NCBI GenBank assembly: GCA_903875215.1
Contig: CAIQVH010000031.1
Span: 372,001-436,000, forward strand
DNA: 64,000 nucleotides
Reading direction: 5' to 3'
Source: an uncultured Anaerolineae bacterium
GTDB taxonomy: Bacteria > Chloroflexota > Anaerolineae > Anaerolineales > Villigracilaceae
The notes under the pieces were generated by a model. The model saw nothing but the letters and a program-made list of their open reading frames with translations, was not told the DNA's origin and did no database searches. The position numbers were made by a program, and so were the translations under genes. This document shows positions 1,010-19,067 of this stretch, one piece after another (positions within the stretch are counted from its first letter, which is position 1; each line of letters opens with the position of its first letter).

Positions 1010-1043
1010 GGGGCATGGGTTCAACCCCATGCCCCTGATTTTT
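1010..1043 (+). terminator. Intrinsic terminator after rpsR
   Basis: Arms GGGGCATGGG (1010-1019) and CCCATGCCCC (1026-1035) form a 10-bp stem followed by a T-rich stretch. It closes the ribosomal operon. Confidence 0.85.
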
Positions 1044-1066
1044 GTACGTCAAGCAAGTGAGACACC

Positions 1067-2359: not shown

Positions 2360-2381
2360 CCAAACGGCAACGCAAGAATAC

Positions 2382-2415
2382 AAAACTCCGGGTTCCGCAA
2401 GAGCCCGGAGTTTTT
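2382..2415. terminator. Bidirectional terminator between convergent genes
   Basis: Stem AAAACTCCGGG / CCCGGAGTTTT (2382-2392, 2404-2414) with runs of A and T on either side, so it can stop transcription both from the PpiC gene and from the minus-strand epimerase. Confidence 0.8.
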
Positions 2416-2474
2416 GTTGGCAATCTGGGGAAGGAAGAGACAAATCCCGGGGGTTTTCTCGGGCAGAGCTGCCG

Positions 2475-5661: not shown

Positions 5662-5690
5662 GGCTCCTATTGTACGCCACTTCCCAAATA

Positions 5691-5719
5691 TTGCGGTTTT
5701 CCGTGGAATCCTGTATAAT
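5691..5719 (+). promoter_or_regulatory. Promoter copy in attL driving the half tRNA
   Basis: -35 TTGCGG (5691-5696), 17-nt spacer, -10 TATAAT (5714-5719). It is identical to the promoter of the intact tRNA-Thr and should still be active, giving a transcript of the truncated tRNA. Confidence 0.8.
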
Positions 5720-5757
5720 CTCGCGCGCTACGATGCCCCCGAAATACTTGGGGACAG

Positions 5758-5796
5758 GCCACCGTAGCACAGTTGGCAGTGCAGCCGATTCGTAAT
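5758..5796 (+). pseudogene. tRNA-Thr 5' half (truncated remnant)
   Basis: Matches the acceptor 5' strand, D arm and anticodon arm up to the loop of the intact tRNA-Thr at 14210. The T arm and acceptor 3' strand are missing, so it cannot make a tRNA. Created by site-specific integration. Confidence 0.9.
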
Positions 5797-5810
5797 AACT
5801 CGCAAATAAA

Positions 5811-5847
5811 AAGCCCCGCCCCCGCATATCTGGGGCGGGTTTGTTTT
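5811..5847 (+). terminator. Terminator directly behind the half tRNA
   Basis: Stem CCCGCCCC (5815-5822) / GGGGCGGG (5832-5839) followed by TTTGTTTT. It lies in element DNA and would end transcription from the attL promoter before it runs antisense into the integrase. Confidence 0.82.
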
Positions 5848-5866
5848 CCGGGGCGCATATCTGGGG
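5823..5866 (+). repeat. 13-bp direct repeat pair next to attL
   Basis: CGCATATCTGGGG occurs at 5823-5835 and 5854-5866. Position beside the crossover region suggests possible integrase arm sites, but the first copy also overlaps the terminator stem, so the role is uncertain. Confidence 0.5.
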
Positions 5867-5925
5867 GTAAAAAGGGGGCCATTGATTAGGCAATTTGTAG
5901 AGTCATTTGGTTGTTTTCCCGGCCA

Positions 5926-6849
5926 CTAATCGCCAGCCAGGGACAGCCCCAACCGGTCACACGGGGCATCGGTCAGGTCTTGCGTCATGCCTAGATAGCG
6001 TTCGGTCGTCTTGATTGACGCATGGCCTAAACTTAATTGAATTTGCTCCAAACTGCTGCCCCCCTTGCGGGCTAGTTTGGCGTAGGTTCTGCGCAGGTCG
6101 TGAGGGGCCGCGTTGATACCCAATTCAGCGAGCCAGGCGCGGGCGGTATCGTGTACCGCCTGGGGCGTGATGGTTTCGCCGCCAATAAATCCGCCTTTGT
6201 GGATGGGGCGAAACACCCGCCCCGCGCGCAGGTCGGCTGATTCTGCCCATGCGTCTACAGCCGCCTTTGTCCAGGATGGGATAGGGACCGAGCGCACCCG
6301 GTTTCCCTTTCCAATCAGGTCCACAATTACCCACCGCCCGTCACGCTGCTGGATGTGTTCGAAGGCCAGGACTGCCACTTCCGAGCGCCGAAGGCCAGCC
6401 CCGAGCATTACAGCCAGCATCGCTCTATCGCGTAAACCTTTCAGCGTGGTGATGTCTGGCAGGTTGAGAAGTTCTTGCGCCTGGGATTTCGTCAGCCAGT
6501 TTCCAGAGCGCACCCCCTGGGATTTGACGCCTTTCACGCGTTCGATAGCTCCCGCCGTGGCCGGGTCAAGATAACCGTTATCCGCTGCTTCCAGGGCCAG
6601 CCGCCGGATAGCCGATAAAGTCAGGTTTACAGTCGCCGGAGCGAGCCGGTCTTGAATTTCGGTTTTGTATCGCTGGACTGTGGCTTTATTCAGCGACGGG
6701 CGTTCGTTGCGTTCCCACCAATTCAGGAAACCCGTCAGCGCCTTTGCATAGTTTCGTTTTGAATTAACGGATGTTAAGCCATCTGTAACCAATTGCACGA
6801 CAGCAGCCAGGCCGCCGCCATCATACCGGGTCAATTCGTTCGGGGTCAT
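5926..6849 (-). CDS. Tyrosine recombinase/integrase 1 (left end of element)
   Basis: Site-specific recombinase of the tyrosine (XerC/D-like) family that would integrate or excise the element. The N-terminal ~100 residues form the SAM-like core-binding domain; the catalytic domain shows R154 (AGLRRSE), K181, H250 and R253 (HDLRR), H276 (LGHAS) and the nucleophile Y285 (TERYLG), so all active residues are present. 307 residues is full length. Its 3' end lies 130 bp from attL. It is at the end of the minus-strand gene run of the element, unlike integrase 2, which starts next to attR. Confidence 0.93.
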   Translation of the reverse strand: MTPNELTRYDGGGLAAVVQLVTDGLTSVNSKRNYAKALTGFLNWWERNERPSLNKATVQRYKTEIQDRLAPATVNLTLSAIRRLALEAADNGYLDPATAGAIERVKGVKSQGVRSGNWLTKSQAQELLNLPDITTLKGLRDRAMLAVMLGAGLRRSEVAVLAFEHIQQRDGRWVIVDLIGKGNRVRSVPIPSWTKAAVDAWAESADLRAGRVFRPIHKGGFIGGETITPQAVHDTARAWLAELGINAAPHDLRRTYAKLARKGGSSLEQIQLSLGHASIKTTERYLGMTQDLTDAPCDRLGLSLAGD

Positions 6850-6940
6850 TTCAAACCGTCCTTTCTAGCCTTTCCTATGGCTTTCTACAAGGGTGATTGT
6901 CATAAGTCATTCAGACTATTTTCAAGGGCAAAAAACGCCC

Positions 6941-7300
6941 CTACCAGGGGAAATAACGGTCAAATTCATCCCAGGTCATCCATTCCTGGACCTGGGGTTT
7001 TTCCGCTGCCCGCCGCGCCCGTTCGGTTACACCGGGATCCCGGTCCACCTGGCGCACATCCAACCCGAGCCGATCAGCCAGTTCCGCCGCGCGTAATTCC
7101 TGCCCGTTGCGTTCCTGCCCGGCCAGCCAGCGCGCCGCCATGCGCTTTGTCCATTCCGCATTAATCGCGCGCGCCTGGGCCTGCTGTTTGAGTTCGCTCA
7201 TGCCAGGCCGCCGCCATGCCTTGATCCTGGGCAGTTCCAGCGCCGAGCGGACTTCATCCCGGCCAGGCTTTTCACCAGTGGAAAAAATACCGTCAGTCAT
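6941..7300 (-). CDS. Hypothetical element protein (119 aa)
   Basis: Soluble, charged protein of unknown function with no motif that I recognise. I set the start at ATG 7300 (MTDGIFSTGEK) because it overlaps the stop of the upstream membrane protein in an ATGA arrangement; longer reading upstream would run through that gene. The middle is rich in Arg/Ala/Glu and probably helical (AELADRLGLDVRQVD could be part of a helix-turn-helix, but is too short to claim). It precedes integrase 1 in the same run. Confidence 0.6.
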   Translation of the reverse strand: MTDGIFSTGEKPGRDEVRSALELPRIKAWRRPGMSELKQQAQARAINAEWTKRMAARWLAGQERNGQELRAAELADRLGLDVRQVDRDPGVTERARRAAEKPQVQEWMTWDEFDRYFPW

Positions 7301-7467
7301 TTCGTCACCTTCCGCAAAGACAATCCAACCGCCGCCAGCGCCGCGCACGTCCAGAGCGTAACCAGCCCCACCGCAGCCCACAGCCCGCCAACAATCCACG
7401 CCAGGCTGCCCATCACCAGTCCGGGGCCACCCGCAGCGCAGGCCAGAAAAAACAGGTTTGCGGTCAT
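7297..7467 (-). CDS. Small two-helix membrane protein (56 aa)
   Basis: Unknown function. Almost the whole protein is two hydrophobic segments (NLFFLACAAGGPGLVMGSLA and VGLVTLWTCAALAAVGLSL) ending in a basic LRKVTK tail, so both ends are probably near the membrane face. ATG 7467 overlaps the stop of the zinc-ribbon ORF (ATGA), and its own stop overlaps the next start in the same way. This chain of overlaps supports translation as one coupled unit and supports this short start over a longer one in the same frame. Confidence 0.6.
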   Translation of the reverse strand: MTANLFFLACAAGGPGLVMGSLAWIVGGLWAAVGLVTLWTCAALAAVGLSLRKVTK

Positions 7468-7589
7468 ATCGCCATCTTGCGTCTTTCCTTGCGTTCCCGG
7501 TAGGCTGCCTGTTTGCAAGCCGGGGAGTGATACCGGCTGTGCAAAGCGCCCATATACTTCACACCACAGCGCGCGCATATTCGCTCTAT
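7464..7589 (-). CDS. Small zinc-ribbon protein with apparent ATA start (41 aa)
   Basis: A short frame reads ERICARCGVKYM, then HSRYHSPACKQAAYRERKERRKM (given here in two parts). CARC plus H and C in YHSPAC form a C2HC zinc site, and RYxSPAC-QAAYRERK is the typical tail of small bacterial zinc-finger proteins. No ATG, GTG or TTG lies in frame upstream; the only near-start is ATA at 7589-7587, which overlaps the TAG stop of the previous gene as ATAG, parallel to the ATGA overlaps downstream. Translation by re-initiation is inferred. An alternative is a frameshift from the upstream gene. Confidence 0.5.
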   Translation of the reverse strand: MERICARCGVKYMGALHSRYHSPACKQAAYRERKERRKMAI

Positions 7590-8371
7590 TCCTGGGGAGT
7601 GTTCGCCGGGTGATGTCCGTTCCCGTTCCCGTTGCCCCGGCTGACTTCCACCGCCTCGGGTTTGTATCCGTTCTGCCCGTTCGTTCTGGTAAGCAGCCCC
7701 GGAAAAAAAGACGGCTGATGCTGCCCCACCCCCTTCGAGAAAGCCACCGGAAGCGCAGGCACTTCCCGCGCCGTTGCGTCAATCGTGGGAATTTTCCCGG
7801 TCCCAATGTTCGCCAGGTAACGCGCGCGCGCGTTCTCCATCCAGTCAGTCGCCAGCATGGGAGCCACTTGCGCCGCCAATTGTTCAGCGTTACTGGATAT
7901 TTGTTTCAGGGTTGCAGATTCAACCAGGCTAAATGCCTCTTCTTCAGCCTGTTCCCGCAGCTTGTCCGGGTCGGTCAGGTGATGGGCCACCGTCGCCGCA
8001 ATATTCAGCGCGATTATTCCCGAGAGAGCCAACACGGTCATCTGGATAGTGTCGGCACTCATAACGGCTGTCAGGCCGTTTTTGCCCGTCTGAAAGAGCG
8101 TATCCGCTGTGAACATCGCCACCGCCCCCACCAGGTCTACCAAAATCATCAGGATAGAGATAGCCCGCTGCCAGCCACCCCGCGAGCCGTACAGGTAAGC
8201 CAGCAGCCAGGCAATCAGCCCGCCATCCAGCGCCGCCAGGCCGAAGTAAGCCAGAATAGCACGGTCAGCCGGAAGGGTCAGACTGATAAAATCCAGCGAG
8301 CGCGAAGCCGAATACACCAGCAGCAGCCCACCGAGCAAAGTCACCAAAAAAGCACCGATTTTCTTGAACAT
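7586..8371 (-). CDS. Four-helix membrane protein of the element (261 aa)
   Basis: Unknown function. Four hydrophobic segments lie in the first ~140 residues (IGAFLVTLLGGLLLVYSA; AYFGLAALDGGLIAWLLAYL; ILMILVDLVGAVAMF; VLALSGIIALNIAATVA), followed by a charged cytoplasmic-type tail with a Gly/Asn run near the end (NGNGNGHHP). AAAGGA sits 9 nt before ATG 8371. It follows the SH3 protein and overlaps the zinc-ribbon ORF. Membrane proteins of this type are common on small integrative elements but I cannot name a family. Confidence 0.7.
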   Translation of the reverse strand: MFKKIGAFLVTLLGGLLLVYSASRSLDFISLTLPADRAILAYFGLAALDGGLIAWLLAYLYGSRGGWQRAISILMILVDLVGAVAMFTADTLFQTGKNGLTAVMSADTIQMTVLALSGIIALNIAATVAHHLTDPDKLREQAEEEAFSLVESATLKQISSNAEQLAAQVAPMLATDWMENARARYLANIGTGKIPTIDATAREVPALPVAFSKGVGQHQPSFFPGLLTRTNGQNGYKPEAVEVSRGNGNGNGHHPANTPQE

Positions 8372-8388
8372 GAGTTTTTATCCTTTCA

Positions 8389-8751
8389 TCACTTGCAAAA
8401 AGTAGAATTGACGTACCCGGTCACACCTTCACCGGTCTGAACATTCAGCCAGTCACCCGCCGCCAGCACCACCACCCGCTGCCCCTCGTCCAGGATGCCC
8501 ACCACCGCGCAGCCCACCGAGCCACACGCCCGCAGGTTAACGGTTCCCCCGGCCAGGCCGGTTGATATAGCGCAAGCCCAGGGCGTACCCGTAACCACCA
8601 CGCCCGGATCCGTTGCCGCCACCGGCGCAACACGCCCCACCAACCGCAGGCCAGCCAGCGCCGAGCCGCCCCCACCGGCCAGCCGCCCCGCAAACGCATA
8701 CAGCCCCACAAAACAGGCCAGCGCCAGCACCAAAACGAACACCTTTTTCAT
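8389..8751 (-). CDS. Secreted SH3b-domain protein (120 aa)
   Basis: Exported small protein with a signal peptide or N-terminal anchor (KKVFVLVLALACFVGLYAFA) and a C-terminal bacterial SH3 domain (VNLRACGSVGCAVVGIL, GDWLNVQTGEGVTGYVNSTFC), a fold that often binds cell-wall peptides. Start ATG 8751 follows GAGAGGAAG at a suitable distance; the longer frame has no such signal. Four cysteines in the domain could form disulfides. It may help the element at the cell surface, for example in transfer or exclusion, but this is only a guess. Confidence 0.72.
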   Translation of the reverse strand: MKKVFVLVLALACFVGLYAFAGRLAGGGGSALAGLRLVGRVAPVAATDPGVVVTGTPWACAISTGLAGGTVNLRACGSVGCAVVGILDEGQRVVVLAAGDWLNVQTGEGVTGYVNSTFCK

Positions 8752-8771
8752 CGGGTTCTTCCTCTCGGGTT

Positions 8772-8810
8772 CCGTGAAACAATTCCGTGAAACATTTTTC
8801 CCTGTTTCAC
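8772..8810. repeat. Three parS-half-like CCGTGAAACA repeats
   Basis: CCGTGAAACA occurs directly at 8772-8781 and 8785-8794 (13-bp spacing), and TGTTTCAC inverted at 8803-8810. GTGAAACA (8787-8794) and TGTTTCAC form an 8-bp inverted repeat. It lies in the leader of the SH3 gene. GTGAAACA is exactly half of the bacterial parS palindrome, though no full parS is present. Confidence 0.6.
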
Positions 8811-8983
8811 AACGGTTTTTGTCCGTTTTTGCCTTTCGCGCGCACAACATTCTGCGCCACCTGCCGCCCGCGCAAGATCAGCGCCGCGCACAGCACCACC
8901 AGCCCTTCCAGGCCCGAGAGCCGCCCCAGGGTTTCGCGCACCTCGGGAGTGTTCAGAGAATTGTCCTTCTGGTTCTTTTCCAT
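8807..8983 (-). CDS. Hypothetical small protein with one hydrophobic segment (58 aa)
   Basis: Unknown function. A polar N-terminus (MEKNQKDNSLNTPEVRET) is followed by a hydrophobic stretch GLEGLVVLCAALIL and a basic tail, so it could be a peripheral or single-pass membrane protein. ATG 8983 is preceded by a purine-rich AAAGGAC stretch; I prefer it to the longer frame. It is the first minus-strand gene left of the regulator, so the palindrome at 9067 probably controls it. Confidence 0.55.
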   Translation of the reverse strand: MEKNQKDNSLNTPEVRETLGRLSGLEGLVVLCAALILRGRQVAQNVVRAKGKNGQKPL

Positions 8984-9066
8984 GTCCTTTGTCCTTTCGA
9001 GATCAGGTTTCAGCCAGCGAGCCGCGCCCGCTTTCGGGCTGTTTTGGGGTAGTTTCACCTGCCTTA

Positions 9067-9094
9067 ATCATGTATCATAAGGCTGATACATGAT
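9067..9094. promoter_or_regulatory. Palindromic operator between divergent element genes
   Basis: ATCATGTATCA (9067-9077) and TGATACATGAT (9084-9094) are perfect 11-bp arms around a 6-bp spacer. The site lies between the minus-strand 58-aa gene and the XRE regulator, the usual place for an early/late control operator. Confidence 0.7.
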
Positions 9095-9128
9095 AGCACA
9101 AGTAAGATACTATGTAAATGTCATATGC

Positions 9129-9152
9129 TATAATTTATCAGACTAAAGTCTG
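9129..9152 (+). promoter_or_regulatory. -10 box and second palindrome before the regulator
   Basis: TATAAT at 9129-9134 is a good -10; no clear -35 is seen. The palindrome CAGACT-AA-AGTCTG (9139-9152) overlaps the likely transcription start and may be an additional repressor site. Confidence 0.5.
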
Positions 9153-9193
9153 TTTGTTTTATCTTTCAGATACAGAAGGGCAAGGGTAAAATT

Positions 9194-9445
9194 ATGCTCG
9201 AAATGACAATTTACAACCGCTTGAAAATTCTGATAGCCGAAAAAGAGTTTCGAGAAAAACGAAAACTCACCTACCGCACCATTTCGCAGGAAACGGGCAT
9301 ATCAACGGCTACGTTAACGCTGTACATGAAACAGGGAGTGAAAGCTTTTGACACCGGCACTCTAGAAACGCTGTGTAAGTATTTTGGAGTTTTACCGGGT
9401 CAAATTCTTACTTATTCGGAAGAGCCCCCCATCCCGGAGCCGTAA
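9194..9445 (+). CDS. XRE/Cro-type HTH regulator
   Basis: Small DNA-binding regulator of the Cro/CI (YozG-like) type, 83 residues. The helix-turn-helix lies in TYRTISQETGISTATLTLYM and is followed by TLETLCKYFGVLPGQIL, the usual hydrophobic tail of the fold. It is the only gene besides the next mini-ORF on the plus strand of the element, divergent from the small-protein genes and facing two perfect palindromes, so it probably represses both directions. AAGGG precedes ATG 9194 by a normal distance. Confidence 0.85.
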   Translation: MLEMTIYNRLKILIAEKEFREKRKLTYRTISQETGISTATLTLYMKQGVKAFDTGTLETLCKYFGVLPGQILTYSEEPPIPEP

Positions 9446-9465
9446 CCCCCACCCCACAGGCCAGC

Positions 9466-9588
9466 ATGAATCCAGCCCAGACACCAGGTGAACACGCCAG
9501 CGACAATGAGAAGGACGCCGCCTTCTTCATCGGCTTAATTCTCGGCGCGCTGATAATGTTTGCGCTTTATTATTTCGGTTTCATCTAG
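9466..9588 (+). CDS. Single-pass membrane mini-protein (40 aa)
   Basis: A 40-residue frame reads MNPAQTPGEHASDNEKDAAF (first 20) and continues into one hydrophobic helix, FIGLILGALIMFALYYFGFI. Polar N-terminus plus C-terminal membrane helix is typical of small regulatory or toxin-like membrane peptides. It starts 20 nt after the regulator stop and ends just before a strong terminator, so it is likely co-transcribed. No good ribosome-binding site is seen, which lowers confidence. Confidence 0.5.
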   Translation: MNPAQTPGEHASDNEKDAAFFIGLILGALIMFALYYFGFI

Positions 9589-9606
9589 CCCCCCTGCCCC
9601 AAAACG

Positions 9607-9640
9607 AAAAAGCCGCCCCCGCAAGGACGGCTTTTTTTTG
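9607..9640. terminator. Bidirectional terminator in the element
   Basis: Stem AAAAAGCCG / CGGCTTTTT with long A and T runs, between the plus-strand regulator pair and the minus-strand replication genes. It insulates the two modules. Confidence 0.82.
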
Positions 9641-9656
9641 TTTGACGGTCTACCAC

Positions 9657-10061
9657 CTATACAGCGTTCAACCGCTGCACAATTTCCCGCGCCAGATCAG
9701 CGCCCAGGCCGCCATAGGCAGCGCGACAGGTGGGGCAAATGTCGCCAGGCTTCAAACGAATCACCGGTTCATCACCACCCGCGCCATGAGCAATCCGCAG
9801 CAGCGTACCAATGGCACTCACCGCCCCGGTTTTCTGGCTTACAGCAATCTGGGCCAGGTTCTTCATCAGTTCCGGGGCCGGGTTATCGGGCGAGTATCCC
9901 AATTCATTCAAAATCGCCTGAAAGCCTTCCGCCGCTTTTTCCTCTTTCGTTCTACGGTTGGCCACCATGCGCCGCGCCTCATCCGGGCTGATATACAACT
10001 TCGTCACCCGGCCAGTTTTTGGATCCCGTTCTACAACGCGATCTGGATTATTCCCGCTCAT
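9657..10061 (-). CDS. Hypothetical element protein (134 aa)
   Basis: Unknown function. The N-terminus is charged (PDRVVERDPKTGRVTKLYIS), the middle probably helical, and a CPTC pair lies near the end (GDICPTCRAAYGGLG), which alone is not a full zinc site. Its ATG is 3 nt after the stop of the coiled-coil gene, so the two are surely co-transcribed. It closes the replication module before the terminator at 9607. Confidence 0.65.
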   Translation of the reverse strand: MSGNNPDRVVERDPKTGRVTKLYISPDEARRMVANRRTKEEKAAEGFQAILNELGYSPDNPAPELMKNLAQIAVSQKTGAVSAIGTLLRIAHGAGGDEPVIRLKPGDICPTCRAAYGGLGADLAREIVQRLNAV

Positions 10062-10064
10062 CTG

Positions 10065-10619
10065 TCACCAGCCCCGAGACCAACGCCGCTGCTTTGCCAT
10101 TCGCACGTCATTGTCAAGCGCCTGCCACTTACCCATCCAGGCCTGAAGCGCGCGCCGCCCGTCGGCATCCGGGGCCATCCGCGCAATTTCTTCCCGTTCC
10201 TGCAATAGCTCCTGGCGCTTTCGCTGCACATCCAGCGAAAACTCATCACGGTCAGCCGCATCCACTTCCCCGCGCGCCGCCATGATCCGCTTTTCCAGTT
10301 CTTTCACCTTCTCCACCGTTTTCTCGCTTTGCTGTAACCAGGCTGGGGTGCGTTTCAAACGGGTTAATTCCTCGTTCAACTCATCCAGCGAGCTGCGCGC
10401 CGCCTGCAAGCGATTCGGTTTGGCTGCTTCGGCTTCTTGCTCCATCTTCGCCCGAGCCGCCTGCAAGCCGCTTTCAAAGGCATCAGTTTCCCGAAATAAC
10501 TGACCTATCTGGTCATCGTCTTGAATTTCGCCGCTCTGCACGATATCCATAAAACGCTGCCGGGCTTCATCACTCCACCGCCGGTTCCCCTGCTGATCCT
10601 GCTGAAGTTCTGTACTCAT
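10065..10619 (-). CDS. Coiled-coil hypothetical protein (184 aa)
   Basis: Unknown function. Long Glu/Lys/Arg/Leu-rich heptad-like stretches (ARSSLDELNEELTRLKR; EKTVEKVKELEKRIMAARG; LDVQRKRQELLQEREEIAR) predict a mostly coiled-coil, cytoplasmic protein, perhaps a scaffold or accessory replication factor. It lies between the primase and the 134-aa protein. Start at ATG 10619 has AGGAG about 7 nt upstream. Confidence 0.68.
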   Translation of the reverse strand: MSTELQQDQQGNRRWSDEARQRFMDIVQSGEIQDDDQIGQLFRETDAFESGLQAARAKMEQEAEAAKPNRLQAARSSLDELNEELTRLKRTPAWLQQSEKTVEKVKELEKRIMAARGEVDAADRDEFSLDVQRKRQELLQEREEIARMAPDADGRRALQAWMGKWQALDNDVRMAKQRRWSRGW

Positions 10620-10631
10620 GTTATTTTCTCC

Positions 10632-10744
10632 TGTCTACAAAGGTTCCCAAAATTGGGTAAATTTTTCTCTCACGCCTAGCGACGGGAGAGACCAAACAAC
10701 ACACCAAACACCCCCACGTCCCAACCAATGAGACGAACGTCTCA
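10632..10744. other. Non-coding gap with two palindromes upstream of the coiled-coil gene
   Basis: The 174 bp between the coiled-coil gene and the primase hold CCCAA-AA-TTGGG (about 10647-10658) and TGAGACG-AA-CGTCTCA (10729-10744). They could be regulator sites or part of a replication origin; nothing more specific can be said. Confidence 0.35.
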
Positions 10745-10793
10745 CGGCTGCCCGCTTTTTCACCGCCGCGACCCAGCCCAACGCCCAGCCCGG

Positions 10794-12521
10794 TCACGAT
10801 TCCACCTCCCCGCCAGCCTGGGGTGTTACGCTCTCTATCGTCACCGCAGCGGCATCGCCTGGACCGTAGGTATTAGCAAGCTGCCTAACGCGGTACACCT
10901 GGCCGCCACCGCGCTGTGCTATCATGGCAAGCGCCTTTTTAAGTGGCGGGTATTTATTGCCGCGCTCATCTTCCAGCCATATGTGGCGCTTTCTCTTTTT
11001 CGGCAATATTTCAGGCAGATCATCTAATTCCTGGGGCGTCATTTCGTGCCTGCTGGTGTTCGGGGTAACCTTCAACCCTGCCAGCTTGTCATACTTTCGG
11101 CTTGTCTGGGCTGAAACTCCGATTCGATCAGCGAGCTTTTTTCGGGCATAAATTCCCGGTTTTCGTCTGGGATATGCTGCATAAACTTCTGCCCGATAAT
11201 CTGCCGCCCGCTTGATCTTCTCCGGGGGCATCACGTCAAAGTGCATCTGTATAACACCCAACTTGTCAGCAATATCATTCAAGGCAGGCAGTTTATAGAT
11301 GTTTTCAGGGCGACATGACTTTTTGCCCTTTTTTTCCCCCCTATTCTTCTTTACAGCAAGCGTTAAGGGGGTAAAAAAAGGGCAATAAGTAACAAGTTGT
11401 TCCGTTGCTGTTCGTATTGTTTTTGGTTTAAGCAGGTCTTTGGCAACCGTCAAAGCATCTTTGCGAGTAAACTCCCGCCCAGGTTGCCAGCCAGCCAGGG
11501 CAAAGACATCCAGCAAACGCGCCAGGCTTAAGTGGCCTTTGGAGATCAACTTTTCCCGTAATATCGTAGAAATTGCAAGGGAGTTCGCTCCCAGCCAGGC
11601 TTTTAGGCTGCCAACGCCAAGCTTAATCCCGGTTTCGTTCCATGTGTACCACCGCCCGCAAGCATGGCAGTATAGGCCTTTTTCATGGTGGAGGCTTGCG
11701 TCTGGGGTTTCATCATGGTGAAAGGGACAGTGAACATTTTTAGCCGTGAAGCCGTCCCCCTGGTATTCGGTTGCAAATAACCGATCAGCGACCAGGTCCT
11801 TATATTCCTGGGGAATTGACGCAGAATGATCGGCTTGCGCTTCGAGCCGGGCTGCGGGCTGGGGTTGCGGTAACGGTTCAGGGAAGAAACGGGGTAATCC
11901 GGTTAACCACCGCTCAAAAGACTGCGGTCTGTTATAGGCTTTCCAGGCTTTGCCAAGATCACCACGCGCGCCCAATTCCTCGGGCAGGTTGTGTGCTTCA
12001 AGTTCCAGCGGGCTATTTTGCAATGCCCGCGCGACCTTTTGCGCCCAGGTTGCCCCGGTTGGGTCCAGATCTGGAGCGATATAGACAAGGGACGCGCCGA
12101 GGCCGATCAGGTATTCCGCCAGGTTATCGGGGACTTTGCTTTCAGAGAAGCCGCTCATGACGTGACGAATACCGGCGCTATACATCGCCTGGACATCAGC
12201 TTCACCGGATACATACCAGCAAGCCCCGCCAGCCTGTTTAATCTCGGTTGCCAGGTCTTGAGCGTGGTAAAAAATCGCGCCTTCAGGCTTGCCATCCGGC
12301 CATTTATATTTAGGGTCCGAAGTGCTATCGGCATTTTTCCAGCGATACCCGCCACCTGGGACTGGATATTTCCATCCGTTCCCGCTTGGCTGAATGTCAA
12401 AGACAAGCATGGTGAGGGGAGAGATGCGCCGCTCATCCGCCAGCCGTTTCATGAGCGGATGGTCCAGAACAATTTCGCCGCCGCACTCAAGCGCAGAAAG
12501 GATCAAGGGACTGGCAATCAT
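10794..12521 (-). CDS. Primase-like protein: TOPRIM before zinc finger
   Basis: Probably makes primers for replication of the element. Order of parts: N-terminal region; TOPRIM-like domain at ~100-170 with glutamate in VSGEAD and DxD in PDLDPTG; CHC2-like zinc finger at ~265-290 (CPFH then CHAC, spaced as in DnaG); C-terminal helix-turn-helix near 455-485 (KLADRIGVSAQTSRKY). In DnaG the zinc finger comes first and TOPRIM later, so the order is reversed. No helicase Walker motif is seen. ATG 12521 overlaps the upstream stop (TGATG). Confidence 0.78.
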   Translation of the reverse strand: MIASPLILSALECGGEIVLDHPLMKRLADERRISPLTMLVFDIQPSGNGWKYPVPGGGYRWKNADSTSDPKYKWPDGKPEGAIFYHAQDLATEIKQAGGACWYVSGEADVQAMYSAGIRHVMSGFSESKVPDNLAEYLIGLGASLVYIAPDLDPTGATWAQKVARALQNSPLELEAHNLPEELGARGDLGKAWKAYNRPQSFERWLTGLPRFFPEPLPQPQPAARLEAQADHSASIPQEYKDLVADRLFATEYQGDGFTAKNVHCPFHHDETPDASLHHEKGLYCHACGRWYTWNETGIKLGVGSLKAWLGANSLAISTILREKLISKGHLSLARLLDVFALAGWQPGREFTRKDALTVAKDLLKPKTIRTATEQLVTYCPFFTPLTLAVKKNRGEKKGKKSCRPENIYKLPALNDIADKLGVIQMHFDVMPPEKIKRAADYRAEVYAAYPRRKPGIYARKKLADRIGVSAQTSRKYDKLAGLKVTPNTSRHEMTPQELDDLPEILPKKRKRHIWLEDERGNKYPPLKKALAMIAQRGGGQVYRVRQLANTYGPGDAAAVTIESVTPQAGGEVES

Positions 12522-12799
12522 CACCGCCCCCTTCCCATCTGCCTGGCATGAGAAGAACGCACCTTCTCAAGTTCTTCCAGCAGCAGCGTTATCTTCCCGC
12601 CAGATTGCACCGAGCGCCCAGGCAGATCAGCCACCGCCGAGCGCCATATCTCCCCGCTGACCAGTTTGGTCACCTGCACCGCGCCCACTCCCCGGAGTTC
12701 ATCCTCTAGGACGGTCACGGCCAGCCCGTTCCCCTTGATTGCGACGTATAGTGTATTTTTGAGCTTGCGAATTATTGGGTTTTCAGGTAATATTTTCAT
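12521..12799 (-). CDS. Hypothetical element protein (92 aa)
   Basis: Unknown function. Starts at ATG 12799 (MKILPENPIIRKLKN) after AAAAGGAG, the best ribosome site nearby. A beta-like segment (NTLYVAIKGNGLAVTVLED) is followed by a mixed region and a basic tail rich in Arg. Its stop overlaps the primase start as TGATG, so it is probably translated with the primase and may act with it. Confidence 0.62.
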   Translation of the reverse strand: MKILPENPIIRKLKNTLYVAIKGNGLAVTVLEDELRGVGAVQVTKLVSGEIWRSAVADLPGRSVQSGGKITLLLEELEKVRSSHARQMGRGR

Positions 12800-12814
12800 A
12801 ATACTCCTTTTCAG

Positions 12815-12850
12815 AAAACCCGCTGCCACCGCCAGGCTTTAGCGGGTTTT
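12815..12850 (-). terminator. Hairpin between RHH gene and primase operon
   Basis: Arms AAAACCCGCT (12815-12824) and AGCGGGTTTT (12841-12850). The T run lies inside the stem, so termination may be partial. Confidence 0.55.
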
Positions 12851-12858
12851 CCGCTTAA

Positions 12859-13050
12859 TTAGATGCTCACAGGCTCAAGCGCCGGGGAATTAGGTTTGGT
12901 TTCTTCGTTCTTCATGGCTTGCCACACTTCCCGCGCAATGACGCGCAAGGTGTCAGACTGGGAACGCCCAAGCCGCCGAGCAATGTCAACAATCATCAAA
13001 TGTTCCCGGGGACTTATTCGCATGCTAAAAACTTTGGTTTGATTCTTCAT
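12859..13050 (-). CDS. Ribbon-helix-helix DNA-binding protein (63 aa)
   Basis: Small CopG/Arc-type protein. The strand FSMRISPREHLMI followed by two helices (VDIARRLGRSQSDTLRVIAREV) is the RHH fold, which binds DNA as a dimer. On plasmids such proteins control copy number, partition or their own operon; here it stands at the head of the replication module next to the integrase 2 gene. ATG 13050 follows AAAGGA. No toxin partner lies beside it. Confidence 0.8.
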   Translation of the reverse strand: MKNQTKVFSMRISPREHLMIVDIARRLGRSQSDTLRVIAREVWQAMKNEETKPNSPALEPVSI

Positions 13051-13166
13051 GGCATCATCCTTTCATAAAATTTACAGCCGAATACTAGCAATTTTGTTCT
13101 ATGATTAAGGGTATCGTGGGTGTAAGAATTTGTCTATTGTCATTTTTTGCATAAAATAGCCCACTT

Positions 13167-14087
13167 TTACATGAGCCGATCCACCGGGGAGCCGCGAATG
13201 TGGGCGGTTTTACTGTCAGCATCCACCAGCTTCAGATATTTTTGCAAAGTTTGGATACTGCTATGCCCCATCAGTTTAGCCAGGCTGTAGACATCCACAT
13301 TAGCCCGCAGCATAGAGACAGCGAACAAACGTCGAAACCCGTGTATCTGTGGCGGGTGGATACCAGCCAGCGCCGCCCGTCGGCGGATGATTTGCCGAAG
13401 GCCGCTATAAGTCAACCTTTCGCCGTCAATCGTGACAAACAGGGCCGGAGCGTCATCCTTGCGGGTTTTGAGATATGCCCGCAGCGCCCGCCTCCCCACC
13501 TTGCCTAGAAACACCGTCCGGGATTTATTCCCCTTGCCCCGCCTGATGTGAATTTCACCCGCCATCTGATTAACATCCGCAAGGTTCAGCGCCACAAGTT
13601 CAGCCGCGCGCGCGCCGGTATCCAGGAGCGTGAGAAAAATAGATTTATCACGCGCGCCTGTGGAGCCATCTTTGCAAGTATCCACCAGCGCCAGAATATC
13701 ATCCAGGGCGGGCGGTTCTACAGGGTCGGGTGATAGCCTGGGAGCCTTTACCTTACTGATGGGATTCCTAAAATCGGGGCGGTCAAACTCTACCGCGTAC
13801 CAGTTCAGGAAAGCGCGCAGCGAACGAAAGAATACATGACGCCCGCCGTCACTGTGACCGGTATCCTTTAGATTTATCAGAAAAGAGCGCAGCACCGCCG
13901 GGGAAATGTCGTCAATCTGGGTGATGTCCTGCCTCTTTGCCCACAGAAGAAACGTGGTCAGGCTTTGACGATAAAACCTGATTGACATCGCAGACAATCC
14001 CGCTGCCCTTCGGTCATGCAAAAACGCATCCACCAGGCCGCGCAAGCTGCCAGCATTTTCAATAATCGTATGCTCTTTATTTTTCAT
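13167..14087 (-). CDS. Tyrosine recombinase/integrase 2 (right end of element)
   Basis: XerC/D-like recombinase, 306 residues, with core-binding domain (~15-105) and complete catalytic set: R150 (DTGAR), K175, H249 and R252 (HGFRR), H275 (MGHSS) and nucleophile Y284 (LQKYLKL). It differs clearly in sequence from integrase 1, so the two are not a recent duplication. Its ATG is only 39 bp from attR, the usual position of the element's own integrase. In the circular form the attachment site would lie between the end of integrase 1 and the start of integrase 2. Confidence 0.93.
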   Translation of the reverse strand: MKNKEHTIIENAGSLRGLVDAFLHDRRAAGLSAMSIRFYRQSLTTFLLWAKRQDITQIDDISPAVLRSFLINLKDTGHSDGGRHVFFRSLRAFLNWYAVEFDRPDFRNPISKVKAPRLSPDPVEPPALDDILALVDTCKDGSTGARDKSIFLTLLDTGARAAELVALNLADVNQMAGEIHIRRGKGNKSRTVFLGKVGRRALRAYLKTRKDDAPALFVTIDGERLTYSGLRQIIRRRAALAGIHPPQIHGFRRLFAVSMLRANVDVYSLAKLMGHSSIQTLQKYLKLVDADSKTAHIRGSPVDRLM

Positions 14088-14126
14088 GGGTTCCTTTCCC
14101 GACTAACCCTTTCGCGCAAAAACCCC

Positions 14127-14248
14127 CGCCACTTCCCAAATATTGCGGTTTTCCGTGGAATCCTGTATAATCTCGCGCGCTACGATGCCCCCGAAATACT
14201 TGGGGACAGGCCACCGTAGCACAGTTGGCAGTGCAGCCGATTCGTAAT
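14127..14248 (+). repeat. attR: 122-bp direct repeat restoring promoter and tRNA-Thr 5' half
   Basis: Identical to 5675-5796 without gaps. The upstream part, including the promoter, came in with the element; it joins the host's 3' half to give a complete tRNA gene. Confidence 0.95.
14143..14171 (+). promoter_or_regulatory. Promoter of tRNA-Thr
   Basis: -35 TTGCGG (14143-14148), 17-nt spacer, -10 TATAAT (14166-14171), about 40 nt upstream of the mature tRNA start. Confidence 0.82.
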
Positions 14249-14282
14249 CGGCAGGTCATGGGTTCAAATCCCATCGGTGGCT
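14210..14282 (+). tRNA. tRNA-Thr(CGU)
   Basis: A 73-nt cloverleaf: acceptor GCCACCG/CGGTGGC, D arm GCAC/GTGC, anticodon stem GCCGA/TCGGC with loop TTCGTAA giving anticodon CGT, and T arm ATGGG/CCCAT with loop TTCAAAT. The CCA end is not encoded. It is the integration site of the element and was rebuilt from element 5' DNA and host 3' DNA. Confidence 0.95.
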
Positions 14283-14286
14283 CAAC

Positions 14287-14313
14287 AAAACGCCCACAAG
14301 GGCGTTTTTTGTT
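14287..14313 (+). terminator. Terminator after tRNA-Thr
   Basis: Stem AAAACGCCC / GGGCGTTTT with loop ACAA and a run of T immediately behind the tRNA. Confidence 0.85.
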
Positions 14314-14402
14314 TCTAATTTGCATGGCTGCCGTCATTTCCAACAAGGAGGTGGATGCCCTTATAATTGCCGTTGCGCACCAATTGGATGAAAGGCTGGA
14401 TT

Positions 14403-16007
14403 ATGAAAAGTTTTGGCGAAAACCAAGCTCATGACAGAAAAACACCATCCACCCCGGCGCCCCGCCAGCGGCTGGCTGCGCTCGCGCCAGAGCAGAGCGC
14501 CCGGCTGATCCTGTTCGCGGCGCTGCTGCTGGGCGGCTGGCTGCGCTTTAGCCCCGGCGCGCTGGCCGGTTTTCCGCTCAACGATGGCGGGATGTTTGCC
14601 GCCGCAATAGAGTCCCTGCTCAAAAATCACCTGGCCCTGCCGGCGCGCCTGCCATACAACGGGCTGGAAATTCCGTTCGTTTACCCGCCCCTGCCCTTTT
14701 ACGCCGCCGCGCTGTTCCAGGCCGCCCTGCGCGTGCCGGTCACCAGCCTGCTGATCTGGCTGCCAGCGGCGCTGTCCACGCTGTGCATTCCCGCCGTATA
14801 CAGGCTCCTGCGCGCCCTGACGCCCAACCCACTGGTGGCGGCTGGCGCAGCCTTGCTCTACGCCTTTCTGCCCGCCGGCATGACCTGGCTGGTGATGGGC
14901 GGCGGCCTGACGCGCAGTTTTGGCCTGCTCTTCCTGCTGCTCACCACGCGCAGCGCCTACGGATTGTTCCAGCAGAACGAAAAAGGCTCCGGCTGGCAAA
15001 CAGCCTTGTGGGGCAGCCTGACCATTCTCAGCCACCCCGAAATGGCGCTGCACGCCGCCGGGCTGGCCGCCACGTTGCTGCTCTTTGCCCCGCGCCGCGA
15101 GAATTTCCTGCGCGCCCTGGGCGTGGGCGCCGCCATCCTGACATTTACCTCCCCCTGGTGGGCCACTGCCCTGCTGCGCTTTGGCCTGGAACCATTCCGG
15201 CAGGCGGCGGCCCTGGGCGGCCACGATTGGCTGTGGATCCTTCAACAGCTTGGCTTGCTCGAATTAAGCGGCGAAAAACTGACCGCCGCGCTGGGTCTGC
15301 TCGGGCTGGGCGTTTTGCTGGCGCGCCGGGAATTCCTGCCCGTGGCGTTGTTCTGTCTGCCTTACCTGGCCAACCCGCGCAACGCCGGCAGCGTCGCAAT
15401 CGTGTTTCTGGCCTACGCCGTCTCGGTCGCCTGTTTCGACCTGATCGCGCCAGGCCTGCAGAATCATGCACCGCACGGACGCGCCGCCCTGGCCGGGCTG
15501 GCCGTCTACGCTGCGCTGACCCTGCTGTTGGGCGCTACCCTGGAAACTGCGCAACAATCACGAATCATCATCACACCGCAAGACCGCCAGGCGTTGGGCT
15601 GGGTATCTGCCCACACCCCCACCGACAGCCGCTTCCTGGTGCTGACGGGCAGCAGCCACCCGTTTTATGACCCCGTGCCGGAATGGTTCCCGGTGCTGGC
15701 AGAACGCACCAGCCTGGGCACCCTGCAAGGCCGCGAATGGCAGTTTGGAGAACATTTTTCCATCGAAATGGGCCAGTTGCTGGCCCTGCAGCAGTGCTAT
15801 TATCTGACGGAGCCGTGCCTGGCCGAACGCGCCGCTGTCTACCCGCCGGCCGGGTATGTTTATGTGGAAAAGACCTGCGCCGGGCAGGCGGGCTGCGCCC
15901 TGCCTGCCGGCCAGCAGAGTCCACTGATTGCCAGCCTGCGGCAGGCCGGGGACTCTTATAAGGTGGTTTTTGAAAACGAGGGTGTGGTGATTTTTGCCCG
16001 GCGCTGA
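14403..16007 (+). CDS. Multi-pass membrane protein, GT-C/PMT-like
   Basis: Predicted integral membrane protein of 534 residues. About ten or more hydrophobic segments fill residues ~25-400, and a soluble, probably extracytoplasmic tail follows. An early loop with an acidic residue (FPLNDGGMFAAAIESLLKNH) and YPPLPFYAAALFQ resembles membrane glycosyltransferases of the GT-C (GT39/GT83-like) type that use lipid-linked sugars, but I cannot name the substrate. ATG 14403 follows GAAAGG by 7 nt. It lies directly beside the element but belongs to the chromosome. Confidence 0.7.
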   Translation: MKSFGENQAHDRKTPSTPAPRQRLAALAPEQSARLILFAALLLGGWLRFSPGALAGFPLNDGGMFAAAIESLLKNHLALPARLPYNGLEIPFVYPPLPFYAAALFQAALRVPVTSLLIWLPAALSTLCIPAVYRLLRALTPNPLVAAGAALLYAFLPAGMTWLVMGGGLTRSFGLLFLLLTTRSAYGLFQQNEKGSGWQTALWGSLTILSHPEMALHAAGLAATLLLFAPRRENFLRALGVGAAILTFTSPWWATALLRFGLEPFRQAAALGGHDWLWILQQLGLLELSGEKLTAALGLLGLGVLLARREFLPVALFCLPYLANPRNAGSVAIVFLAYAVSVACFDLIAPGLQNHAPHGRAALAGLAVYAALTLLLGATLETAQQSRIIITPQDRQALGWVSAHTPTDSRFLVLTGSSHPFYDPVPEWFPVLAERTSLGTLQGREWQFGEHFSIEMGQLLALQQCYYLTEPCLAERAAVYPPAGYVYVEKTCAGQAGCALPAGQQSPLIASLRQAGDSYKVVFENEGVVIFARR

Positions 16008-16010
16008 AGC

Positions 16011-17048
16011 TCAGACCGAAAAGCGGCGGGCGATGGCCCGGTCAACCTTGCCCATTGGGCAGGCGGCCAGGTCGTGGATGGGAATCCATTGAAGGGGAGA
16101 ATTTTCGGGGAGCTGGAGCAGGTCACAGCGCCAGGGGATTTCCGTCAGATGAAAATGGGTATAGGTGTGCCGGATTTCCGTCAGGCGCGCCAGCGGAAAG
16201 ATTTTCAGCTGGTAGGCGGCCTGCAGCGCGGCACTCATCGCTTCAGCTGAGTCCTGTTCCACTTCTGCGGCGGGGAATTCCCACAGGCCGCCGAGCAGGC
16301 CGCTGGCGGGGCGCAAATTCAAGAGCAGGGTTTCATCCAATAAAATAACCGCGGCGGCTTTCAGATGGTGCGGCAGGACGGGTTTGGGTTTAAGCACCGG
16401 GCGTTCGTCCTGCAGGCCGAGCGCGCGCGCCTGGCACAGATCGGACAGCGGACAGAGCTGGCAGAGCGGTTTGCGCGGCAGGCAGACGGTGGCGCCGAGA
16501 TCCATCAGGGCCTGGTTGTAATCTCCGGCGCGGCCAGGCGGCAGGTGCGCTTCGGCCAGCGTCCACAGGCTGTTTTCTCCGGCGGGGCTGTCGGCGGGCT
16601 GTGCGAGGTTAAAGACGCGCGCAAAGACGCGCTTCAGGTTGCCATCCAGGGTGGCCACATCCATCCCAAAAGCGATCGAGGCGATGGCGGCGGCAGTGTA
16701 GCGCCCAATGCCAGGCAGTTGGCGCAGACCTGCCAGGTCGCGGGGCAACTGCCCATTGTGCGCGTTCACGACCAGCCGGGCGGCTTTGTGCAGGTTGCGG
16801 GCGCGGCTGTAATAACCCAGACCTTCCCAGGCCGAGAGCACGGCCTGCTCGGGCGCGGCGGCCAGCGCGGCCACGCTGGGGAACTGATTCATCCAGCGCT
16901 CAAAATAAGGCCGCACGGTTTCGACGCGCGTCTGCTGGAGCATGATCTCGGACACCCAGACGGCATAGGAATCAGGATGCCCGCGCCAGGGCAGGACGCG
17001 GGCATGTTGATCGTACCAGATCAGGATGCGGTGTGAGAACTCGGACAT
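16011..17048 (-). CDS. mutY: A/G-specific adenine DNA glycosylase
   Basis: Removes adenine mispaired with 8-oxoguanine in base-excision repair. The N-terminal HhH-GPD domain shows the catalytic Glu region (SEIMLQQTRV), the hairpin LPGIGRYTAAAIASIAFG and the catalytic Asp in ATLDGNLKRV; four cysteines (C-x6-C-x2-C-x5-C) bind a 4Fe-4S cluster; the C-terminal NUDIX-like domain (GLLGGLWEFP, THFHLT) reads 8-oxoG. The start at 17048 overlaps the upstream stop (TGATG). 345 residues, normal length. Confidence 0.93.
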   Translation of the reverse strand: MSEFSHRILIWYDQHARVLPWRGHPDSYAVWVSEIMLQQTRVETVRPYFERWMNQFPSVAALAAAPEQAVLSAWEGLGYYSRARNLHKAARLVVNAHNGQLPRDLAGLRQLPGIGRYTAAAIASIAFGMDVATLDGNLKRVFARVFNLAQPADSPAGENSLWTLAEAHLPPGRAGDYNQALMDLGATVCLPRKPLCQLCPLSDLCQARALGLQDERPVLKPKPVLPHHLKAAAVILLDETLLLNLRPASGLLGGLWEFPAAEVEQDSAEAMSAALQAAYQLKIFPLARLTEIRHTYTHFHLTEIPWRCDLLQLPENSPLQWIPIHDLAACPMGKVDRAIARRFSV

Positions 17049-17350
17049 CAGAACTGGAAACCGCCCTTGTTGGGAACCAGTTTTACCGAATAGTTTTTTA
17101 CAAATCCAAACAGGCGTTCTTGCAGACTGCTCCACTCGACAGAGTTGATCACCCGTTGAGCGCCGGGCAGGTCGGGGGCGAGCATGGCAACCAGGATCTG
17201 GGGATAATCGCCATAGATGGTGGCCCAGGCTTCGATAGTTTCAAAACCCAGGTGCTGAATGCCGGGGATGAATTCGCCAATGACAAATTCAAAATATTCC
17301 TGCTCACGCTCAGGGGCAATGTCCCAGGTCATCAATAATTTAACTGGCAT
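17048..17350 (-). CDS. Conserved hypothetical, ferredoxin-like fold (100 aa)
   Basis: Small soluble protein of unknown role. The arrangement of strands and helices (MPVKLLMTWDI; EQEYFEFVIGEFIPGIQ; LGFETIEAWATIYGDYPQILVAML) suggests an alpha+beta barrel of the Dabb/ferredoxin-like class, but no catalytic motif is visible. A clear GGAGG stands 6 nt before ATG 17350. It is coupled to mutY by a TGATG overlap, so the pair is co-expressed. Confidence 0.7.
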   Translation of the reverse strand: MPVKLLMTWDIAPEREQEYFEFVIGEFIPGIQHLGFETIEAWATIYGDYPQILVAMLAPDLPGAQRVINSVEWSSLQERLFGFVKNYSVKLVPNKGGFQF

Positions 17351-17389
17351 AAAGCCTCCGGTAGGATCAAAAGAATCGGCCACGCGATT

Positions 17390-18043
17390 TCATTGCGGGC
17401 TGGCAGCCGGGCTGAGGACGATGACCTTGGTTTCTTCAGGCAGGCCGGAGCGCGTGATTTTCAGAGCCGGGACGGTTTCGTGGGCGGAAAGGCCCATTTC
17501 CTTGAGAAACTTGGAAAGCGGGTCAAGGTCCAGGGTGCAGGGCGCACCGCCAAAGTGCATCGGAATGACAATTTTTGGTTCGATCAGCGAGATGACCTCG
17601 GCGGCCTTGGCGGCGTTCAGACCATTGCCTCCGCCAACCGGCACAAGGGCGATGTGAACCGTGCCGAGGGCTTCGATCTCGGTCTGGGTTGGGGCCTGGC
17701 GTAAATCTCCCAGGTGGGCGACATTGAGTCCGTTAAAATCAAACAGATAGAGGGTGTTGCGCGGCTTGTCGGTGCTTTTCTTACCGTTGCCATCCGTCTG
17801 GACACCAGTGATAAAAACGCCGCCAATTTCAAATTCTCCAGGACCGGTGATGCGGTGCTGGGTGCCTTTGACAACGCTGATGAAATTGTGGCCCGGCGCC
17901 TGGTGACTGACCGTGACAATATCCGCCTTGAGTCTGACCGGTTCATAGCCGACCACCTCGCTATCGAATGGGTCGGTGACAACGCTGGCCATACCGCGCT
18001 CGGTGAAACGAAAACAGGAATGCCCGTACCAAGTAATTTCCAT
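17390..18043 (-). CDS. MBL-fold protein with altered metal site
   Basis: Metallo-beta-lactamase-fold protein of the UPF0173/Lactamase_B_3 type (MEITWYGHSCFRF start). In this family a HxHxDH motif binds two zinc ions; here the position reads SHQAPGH, so the second His and the Asp are Ala and Gly. Other features remain: GDLRQ, and IPMHFGG near the C-terminus. It may bind one metal, or have lost hydrolase activity. GGAGG lies upstream of ATG 18043. It is divergent from the EamA permease. Confidence 0.78.
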   Translation of the reverse strand: MEITWYGHSCFRFTERGMASVVTDPFDSEVVGYEPVRLKADIVTVSHQAPGHNFISVVKGTQHRITGPGEFEIGGVFITGVQTDGNGKKSTDKPRNTLYLFDFNGLNVAHLGDLRQAPTQTEIEALGTVHIALVPVGGGNGLNAAKAAEVISLIEPKIVIPMHFGGAPCTLDLDPLSKFLKEMGLSAHETVPALKITRSGLPEETKVIVLSPAASPQ

Positions 18044-18125
18044 TGAGTGACAACCTCCAAGGCAATTATACCCGTACCCATTGGAGAAAAGATATAATTC
18101 GCCAACTCTTACAAAGGATTTACAC

Positions 18126-19010: not shown

Positions 19011-19023
19011 TTTTCTCTCGAAA

Positions 19024-19064
19024 AACAACTGGCGGGGCGTCTGACAGACGCCCCGCCAGTTGTT
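19024..19064. terminator. Strong bidirectional terminator
   Basis: Arms AACAACTGGCGGGGCGTCT / AGACGCCCCGCCAGTTGTT form a perfect 19-bp stem with a 3-nt loop between convergent genes. Confidence 0.85.
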
Positions 19065-19067
19065 TCA

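Follow-up and report, generated by a model that had tools for sequence, protein, structure and literature searches.

The stretch of DNA analysed here, called the window, comprises 64,000 nucleotides of an uncultured Anaerolineae bacterium (Villigracilaceae; contig CAIQVH010000031.1, positions 372,001 to 436,000). At 10794..12521 of its minus strand lies the gene of a primase-like protein of 575 amino acids (P0001), whose TOPRIM core stands ahead of a zinc ribbon, and which is carried by an integrative element. The open reading frame (ORF) was confirmed where the original prediction, made from the sequence alone, had placed it. The gene starts with ATG at 12521 or alternatively with GTG at 12524; residue 1 is here the GTG, and ATG-based numbers are lower by 1. 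A DnaG-type RNA polymerase domain with TOPRIM covers residues ~23-212 (11889..12458), with the catalytic codons E108 (12201-12203), D152 (12069-12071), D154 (12063-12065) and D189 (11958-11960). It is followed by a CHC2-type zinc ribbon at residues ~236-306 (11607..11819; ligands C266, H269, C286 and C289) and by a C-terminal domain (CTD) at residues 315-560 (10845..11582). Inside the CTD a helix-turn-helix (HTH)-like stretch was read from the sequence at residues ~459-484 (11073..11150); all these features are on the minus strand. The motifs named in the prediction, GEAD (107-110), DLD (152-154) and CPFH...CHAC (266-289), are present in this order, the ligands come after the core, and no zinc motif was seen by eye before it. 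Judged by the residues, the acidic positions of a DnaG-type core are thus intact and are followed by a primase-type ribbon and an HTH-like CTD. The ratio of nonsynonymous to synonymous substitutions (dN/dS) was ~0.19 for G526-G269 and ~0.15 for G494-G519, the two pairs with dS < 1, and therefore the protein is under purifying selection (G and L codes denote genomes and loci of the comparative samples).

For primases of the DnaG kind the order zinc ribbon, catalytic core and helicase-binding tail is described as fixed (PMC6163395, PMC10359460). The reversed order proposed for the window protein proved to be real and conserved. It was examined with A7, a nine-row family alignment and profile with rows 21-59% identical to P0001. 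The five best matches of A7 among PDB sequences were all DNA primases. With the A. aeolicus DnaG 2au3 an E-value of 6.8e-6 was obtained for the whole sequence; positions 76-188 of A7 aligned with 212-323 of the chain (E=0.016 for the stretch alone) and positions 262-294 with 29-62 (E=4.8 for the stretch alone). The solved zinc domain 1d0q was matched with E=0.0051. In hhalign comparisons with 18 DnaGs of the host's clade, controlled by 100 column shuffles per part, family positions 22-160 corresponded to 181-362 of DnaG (probability 95, score 69.1; best shuffled 25.4) and positions 259-285 to 80-109 (probability 19, score 35.4). The zinc part alone scored 34.5 and 31.4 (best shuffled 28.7). 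Since these scores lie above all column-shuffled controls, the permuted match exceeds what chance would give. Of its two parts the zinc match is weaker, yet in these alignments it is above all shuffles and rests on invariant ligands. Twenty columns of A7 are invariant (9/9), including E108, D110, D152, D154, G157, D189, R61, K72, C266, H269 and C286.

Single sequences gave lower scores. For P0001, Pfam matched Toprim_2 at 107-182 with E=0.039 (14.8 bits, cut-off 22.1) and Zn_ribbon_DnaG at 256-291 with E=9e-4; primase matches of the PHROG collection fell at 103-210 and 260-290. Positions 36-63 of the dnaG model TIGR01391 aligned with residues 265-291 of P0001, whose 20.8 bits are far under the family cut-off of 283.6, and positions 240-337 with residues 83-183 of the related protein P0002. 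Toprim_2 was barely over its cut-off of 22.1 bits in P0002 (22.5 bits) and clearly over it in the distant member L058 (37.8 bits). The family-profile searches against PDB sequences and host-clade DnaGs could have found TOPRIM absent or the core elsewhere; they left the proposed reading standing. The D-a-N-acidic motif given for Toprim_2/3/4 primases before strand 4 (PMC5512222) was looked for by eye, and GDANDLL in L057, GDVNDLL in L058 and GDLGKAW in P0001 were noted. The ordinary order is found in the host's own DnaG (G000:C18), in L062 and in L106. As an ordinary DnaG is encoded elsewhere in the host, the window protein is not the housekeeping primase.

Homologues on other elements, expected by the original prediction, were detected. 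The samples comprised 400 genomes of the phylum, 396 of the class, 301 of the order, 152 of the host's bacterial family and ten others of the genus. Fourteen of the 400 phylum genomes were matched, with one full-length relative (G269, 59% identity to P0001); eleven had partial weak matches only (E 1.5e-4 to 0.008) and were not counted as members. A two-sequence profile of G000 and G269 matched 6/152 genomes of the bacterial family, two being query rows, and added G526, G519 and G494 with full-length proteins as well as G439. The G439 gene is split over two frames next to a tandem duplication of 29 bp (L027 10026-10158), its TOPRIM-zinc part and tail forming separate ORFs. With an N-terminal profile 7/396 class genomes were matched (two of them query rows), and the new distant members among them are L056 (G614), L057 (G678) and L058 (G851); G863 gave fragments, and in G745 the zinc part alone was matched. 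The order sample gave 6/301 genomes, five known ones from the query rows and G1064; the latter (L106) was rejected as a member, being an ordinary primase with the zinc motif first. A scan of genome contigs with a narrow two-sequence query found the two nearest proteins, both labelled as Anaerolineales. The TOPRIM-zinc protein is absent from all ten further genomes of the genus, and no relative was found in the plasmid collection. Scans of viral contigs gave no member; the sole locus that they yielded, L062, encodes a Zn-TOPRIM primase of the ordinary kind with a helicase-like part. Matches in the phage collection, mostly to genes annotated as DNA primase, span 10-19% of the query.

In G240, two proteins starting with Prim-Pol (PF09250 E=6e-18 and 1e-17) have a C-terminal part that is homologous to residues 315-560 of P0001. 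The homology of the CTD to Prim-Pol proteins reached E=3e-11 over 131 amino acids for P0001 and E=2e-15 over 259 amino acids for P0002. A CTD profile detected 22 places in 19/396 class genomes, four of them query rows (G000, G269 and two in G240). At 17/22 places, or 15/18 excluding the query rows, the head is a Prim-Pol of the archaeo-eukaryotic primase (AEP) type over the cut-off; at 2/22 (G000, G269) it is TOPRIM; heads were assessed at 20/22 places, all except L050 and L049, the latter truncated at a contig end. L053/L060 has the ribbon of the family (PF01807 E=1.9e-4; family zinc profile E=1e-10) and its CTD, preceded by another head without TOPRIM match. The L060 head is AEP-like by eye, its best PHROG match (E=1.9e-22) has no assigned function, others are helicase/primase, and nothing more is claimed for it. 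PriCT-1 was found ahead of the CTD over the cut-off in L044 and just under it in L035, at about the place of the ribbon in the TOPRIM proteins. P0001 itself gave neither a Prim-Pol match in Pfam at E up to 1 nor PriCT-1 in the Pfam scan, and the family zinc profile matched 0/10 Prim-Pol proteins scanned. TOPRIM and Prim-Pol kinds are both present, on different contigs, in G614, G851 and G863. Compared with DnaG of the host's clade, the CTD gave an hhalign probability of 0.2 (19-row alignment including one wrong-frame row) and no match to the C-terminal helicase-binding domain. HTH_24 lies inside the CTD of L040 with 20.4 bits, just under the cut-off of 21.9. The tail common to the Prim-Pol proteins suggests that primase heads were swapped on plasmid-type replication proteins; it looks like a clear example of an exchange between two primase folds that are unrelated, on a single replication protein.

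The gene lies in an apparently complete 8.45-kb element at 5675-14248. It is bordered by 122-bp perfect direct repeats, the att repeats, at 5675..5796 and 14127..14248 (spacing 8452), which span upstream DNA and part of a tRNA-Thr (CGT) gene, the integration target at 14210..14283 (+). The right copy includes 39/74 bases of the tRNA. The element appears to enter tRNA-Thr from the 5' side and to resupply the upstream region and the 5' half. Tyrosine integrases are encoded at the tRNA end (13167..14087, minus strand; Phage_integrase E=7.5e-33) and at the other end (5926..6849, minus strand; E=1.5e-21). The left flank is present in 7/10 other genomes of the genus. In 4/7 (G449, G453, G455, G458) the site is empty: an intact tRNA-Thr (CGT) stands at the flank or within ~130 bp of it, and the element is absent. 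The tRNA scan covered six of the seven, and the remaining two had no tRNA there.

Several tRNA genes across the host's bacterial family hold such elements. Sister elements have a 68-bp repeat at tRNA-Arg (G494, spacing 9691), a 117-bp repeat at tRNA-Leu (G439, spacing 10822) and a broken repeat with a serine recombinase by eye (G269, spacing 8833). Integrase, primase, SH3 protein and membrane protein occur together in 5/6 loci (the window, L024, L025, L026, L027); L023 gave no SH3 or membrane protein match. As all five loci but L025 supplied rows for the SH3 and membrane protein profiles, L025 is the only independent match. The bacterial SH3 domain protein of the window (8389..8850, minus strand; SH3_3 E=1.7e-6) and the membrane protein (7586..8371, minus strand; hydrophobic segments by eye) are both kept in sister elements. 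The latter is 72% and 33% identical to its counterparts in L026 and L027 and has a profile match in L025.

Distant members were found in a plasmid-like context. In L085 and L083 a gene of a ParA-family ATPase lies near the TOPRIM-zinc gene, at a distance of ~1.5 kb and ~7.6 kb respectively (AAA_31 E=1.7e-40 and 7.2e-45), and L083 also holds two TrwB/TraD-like ATPases. Directly after the TOPRIM-zinc gene, L084 and L085 encode a multi-HTH protein, ParB-like by eye; that of L085 matched RepB with 20.4 bits, under the cut-off of 30 (among the matches listed, the best 25 of 28). On contig G745:C8, which carries L060, the stretches 63-4462 and 14198-18597 are exact copies of a 4,400-bp repeat. This arrangement suggests an assembled circle of 14,135 bp, although it may also be an assembly artefact or a real duplication.

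Integrases, att repeats, the common tail, the ParA genes and the absence from ten genomes of the genus point to a function in mobile-element replication. In our reading the window protein replicates a small, plasmid-like integrative element as an initiator-primase that works in the manner of Rep of ColE2 or RepS, with TOPRIM as its head and the ribbon next in the chain; we assign this reading a probability of roughly 0.68. For the steps we infer the following course. The integrase or integrases would excise the element as a circle of ~8.45 kb, on which the CTD would bind the origin. The TOPRIM core would make a short RNA primer there, and the zinc ribbon would read the start site and hold the 5' end of the primer. 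A host polymerase would then extend the primer and the host replisome finish replication, as described for ColE2 Rep. The ribbon may lie downstream because primase ribbons are flexibly tethered modules, so that the position in the chain may not matter. Primase subunits can reportedly act in trans, according to the title of one study. In T4 gp61 a flexible loop joins ribbon and core, the ribbon having the task of reading the template and of holding the 5' end of the primer (PMC10359460), which makes a moved ribbon plausible. For jumbo phages stand-alone primase zinc ribbons are reported (PMC7824862).

Several results weigh against this reading. The matches of P0001 in Pfam and NCBIfam are all under the curated cut-offs, and the zinc ribbon was weak in every single-sequence test. 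Pfam detected no zinc ribbon in P0002 (E up to 1) or L058 (E up to 0.1) and neither TOPRIM nor zinc ribbon in L056 (E up to 0.1). The fourth zinc ligand, C289, is C in 7/9 rows of A7 and E in 2/9, and the ligand spacing differs in L056-L058. A profile made only from DnaGs of the host's clade matched single members weakly: the best TOPRIM score was 9.7 bits (L058), zinc reached at most 4.0 bits (P0007) and was placed spuriously in P0006, no TOPRIM match was obtained in P0005, P0006, L059 and L060, and no zinc match in L056. The same profile gave zinc scores of 12.0 and 21.0 bits in the ordinary-order L062 and L106. On these scores the zinc ribbon is not easily detected. AlphaFold2 models from three input sequences were unusable, with a mean predicted local distance difference test (pLDDT) value of 41.7 for the full length and 43.8 for the N-terminal 305 amino acids. 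The order of their secondary structure is compatible with TOPRIM and zinc ribbon and was given no weight. A Foldseek search of the N-terminal model against the PDB was discarded (none at E<=0.001, top matches unrelated, a DnaG domain at rank 19 with E=0.045). The HTH of the CTD is under the Pfam cut-offs, and the CTD has no significant match among solved structures, the best being the DNA-binding RacA with E=0.12 over the HTH-like stretch. In L056 and L058 the CTD is only weakly recognizable, and L057 gave no CTD match at domain E < 1. Neither an origin nor iterons were found, the repeat listings giving chance-like two-copy repeats only, and no circle was seen for the element of the window itself.

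The likeliest of the alternatives is an accessory primase that acts on a single strand arriving by mobilisation or transformation, as TraC of RP4 and Sog, with another protein as initiator. Toprim_2/3/4 proteins are described as DnaG-like primases of mobile elements that prime transferred strands (PMC5512222), the 63-amino-acid neighbour has a weak NikA-like match (E=0.14), and the TrwB/TraD-like ATPases near L083 would fit as well. However, no relaxase, part of a type IV secretion system or other candidate initiator was over the Pfam cut-off in the eleven element ORFs scanned (eight and three), and in the Prim-Pol proteins that share the CTD no helicase was recognized by Pfam. We consider this explanation unlikely. 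Less probable still is a capsid-less satellite or small provirus with a phage-type replication primase. The small size, the Cro/C1-type regulator, the integration into a tRNA gene and the small proteins of unassigned function agree with it, as do weak matches to DUF5681 (L026) and DUF5763 (L027) and weak PHROG tail-fibre and scaffold matches of coiled-coil-like proteins (best E=0.0021, L026). Against it, capsid, portal, terminase and tail families were not found over the Pfam cut-off in eleven ORFs of the window element, five of L026 and one of L027, the viral contigs yielded just the ordinary primase L062, and the phage records matched small parts of the query. That the TOPRIM core belongs to a nuclease, regulator or defence enzyme is very improbable: TOPRIM also occurs in topoisomerases, OLD nucleases and RecR, as the title of a cited paper states, and P0001 weakly matched a PADLOC model of a reverse transcriptase-associated DnaG-like protein (E=6.5e-4), but this match is itself to the DnaG-like part, the family match to the DnaG RNA polymerase domain also takes in its N-terminal lobe, where R61 and K72 are invariant, and the core is followed by a zinc ribbon of the primase type.

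The initiator-primase reading can be compared with known systems. With bacterial DnaG (TIGR01391, PF01807; PDB 2au3, 1d0q, 1dd9) the window protein has in common the TOPRIM RNA polymerase domain with E and DxD and the CHC2-type ribbon, but the ribbon is after the core instead of N-terminal and the CTD has no DnaG match. T7 gp4-like primase-helicases, here L062, likewise combine zinc ribbon and TOPRIM; in these the zinc part comes first and a helicase-like part, seen by eye, lies behind. The Prim-Pol (PF09250) proteins of the class, such as P0004 and L035, have a homologous CTD and differ by the AEP catalytic head. The zinc finger of UL52 and PrimPol is of another type than that of the window protein. 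In these AEP primases of herpes virus and human a C-terminal zinc finger is likewise placed behind the head, which is AEP instead of TOPRIM (PMC4538821). ColE2 Rep is described to bind the origin and to make the RNA primer for Pol I (PMC4538821), and RepE, RepS and PrimHYQ to consist of primase, PriCT-1 and HTH without helicase (PMC5862659). These proteins correspond to P0001 in having a primase head with a tail behind it, HTH-like in P0001, and no helicase, none having been found in P0001 or the eleven element ORFs scanned with Pfam, whereas the head of P0001 is DnaG/TOPRIM instead of AEP and the zinc ribbon stands where they have PriCT-1. The Toprim_2/3/4 primases of conjugative elements (TraC of RP4, polyvalent proteins) are also TOPRIM primases of mobile elements; in P0001 the ribbon is permuted, and no transfer genes were found in the window element. 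For polyvalent proteins both TOPRIM and Prim-Pol are reported, the latter often with a zinc cluster and PriCT domains (PMC5512222).

In the open-access literature, searched for TOPRIM-zinc order and primase architecture as far as its accessible parts go, no description of the order TOPRIM-then-CHC2 was found; most subscription papers and bioRxiv lie outside this coverage. For AEPs, the exchange of modules and a zinc finger that follows the head are already known from the cited papers; a zinc finger behind a TOPRIM head was not found reported in the literature searched. The original prediction is partly supported: the context points to mobile-element replication, and the distinct class of replication-initiation proteins that it suggested is better put as a permuted, helicase-less DnaG-type primase on a tail that in other proteins follows an AEP head. 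We give even odds to the wider proposal of an undescribed initiator-primase class of Chloroflexota, in which TOPRIM and Prim-Pol heads replaced each other on one DNA-binding tail and the zinc ribbon is a separate module between them. If this is true, DnaG-type priming does not require a particular position of the ribbon, and a TOPRIM primase can act as a sequence-specific initiator. With its ribbon conserved in the place after the core, the family is a natural test of the influence of ribbon placement on start-site choice and primer length. The common tail further gives a handle on plasmid-like elements of Chloroflexota, for which the plasmid collection searched held no relative.

The small genes of the elements differ from locus to locus. 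An ORF of 92 amino acids (12521..12799, minus strand) overlaps the primase start, its TGA and the primase ATG forming TGATG. The coupled upstream protein of the original prediction is thus a real ORF; its membership in the system was not supported, as no relative was found upstream in other elements (0 among 15 other small-gene proteins, six being upstream ORFs of other elements). The comparison of 16 small-gene proteins showed two related sets, a pair from upstream (G494-G439, 46%) and a trio from downstream (G526, G269, G439, 56-79%), none of these being in the window. Further element proteins are a ribbon-helix-helix-like (Arc-like) protein of 63 amino acids (12859..13050, minus strand; weak PHROG Arc-like match, E=0.084), a coiled-coil-like one of 184 (10065..10619, minus strand) with weak PHROG and PADLOC matches, the latter to LmuB, and one of 134 (9657..10061, minus strand; PHROG best E=0.27), the last two without Pfam match over the cut-off. 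The Cro/C1-type HTH regulator is encoded at 9194..9445 on the plus strand (HTH_26 E=3.1e-12). In the eleven ORFs no relaxase, helicase, polymerase or virion family was over the Pfam cut-off, and Rfam detected only the tRNA.

Some minor observations were made in addition. The genes of the SH3-domain and membrane proteins adjoin in 5/6 loci, the window included. In L024 (G269) a second copy of the 3' end of a serine-recombinase-like gene is seen, by eye, at the far end of the element (1361-1834 and 8934-10613). Contig G745:C8 (L087 1-18597) encodes an integrase, a membrane protein by eye and the zinc-CTD replication protein with another head. In G519 an ORF of 296 amino acids (L019 3240-4130, minus strand) overlaps the primase start; by eye it resembles a TOPRIM protein of the topoisomerase VI A/Spo11 type, and Pfam gave no match. 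Outside the element, a perfect 21-nt inverted repeat with a 1-nt loop lies at 19023-19065 of the window between two convergent ORF ends and is probably a terminator.

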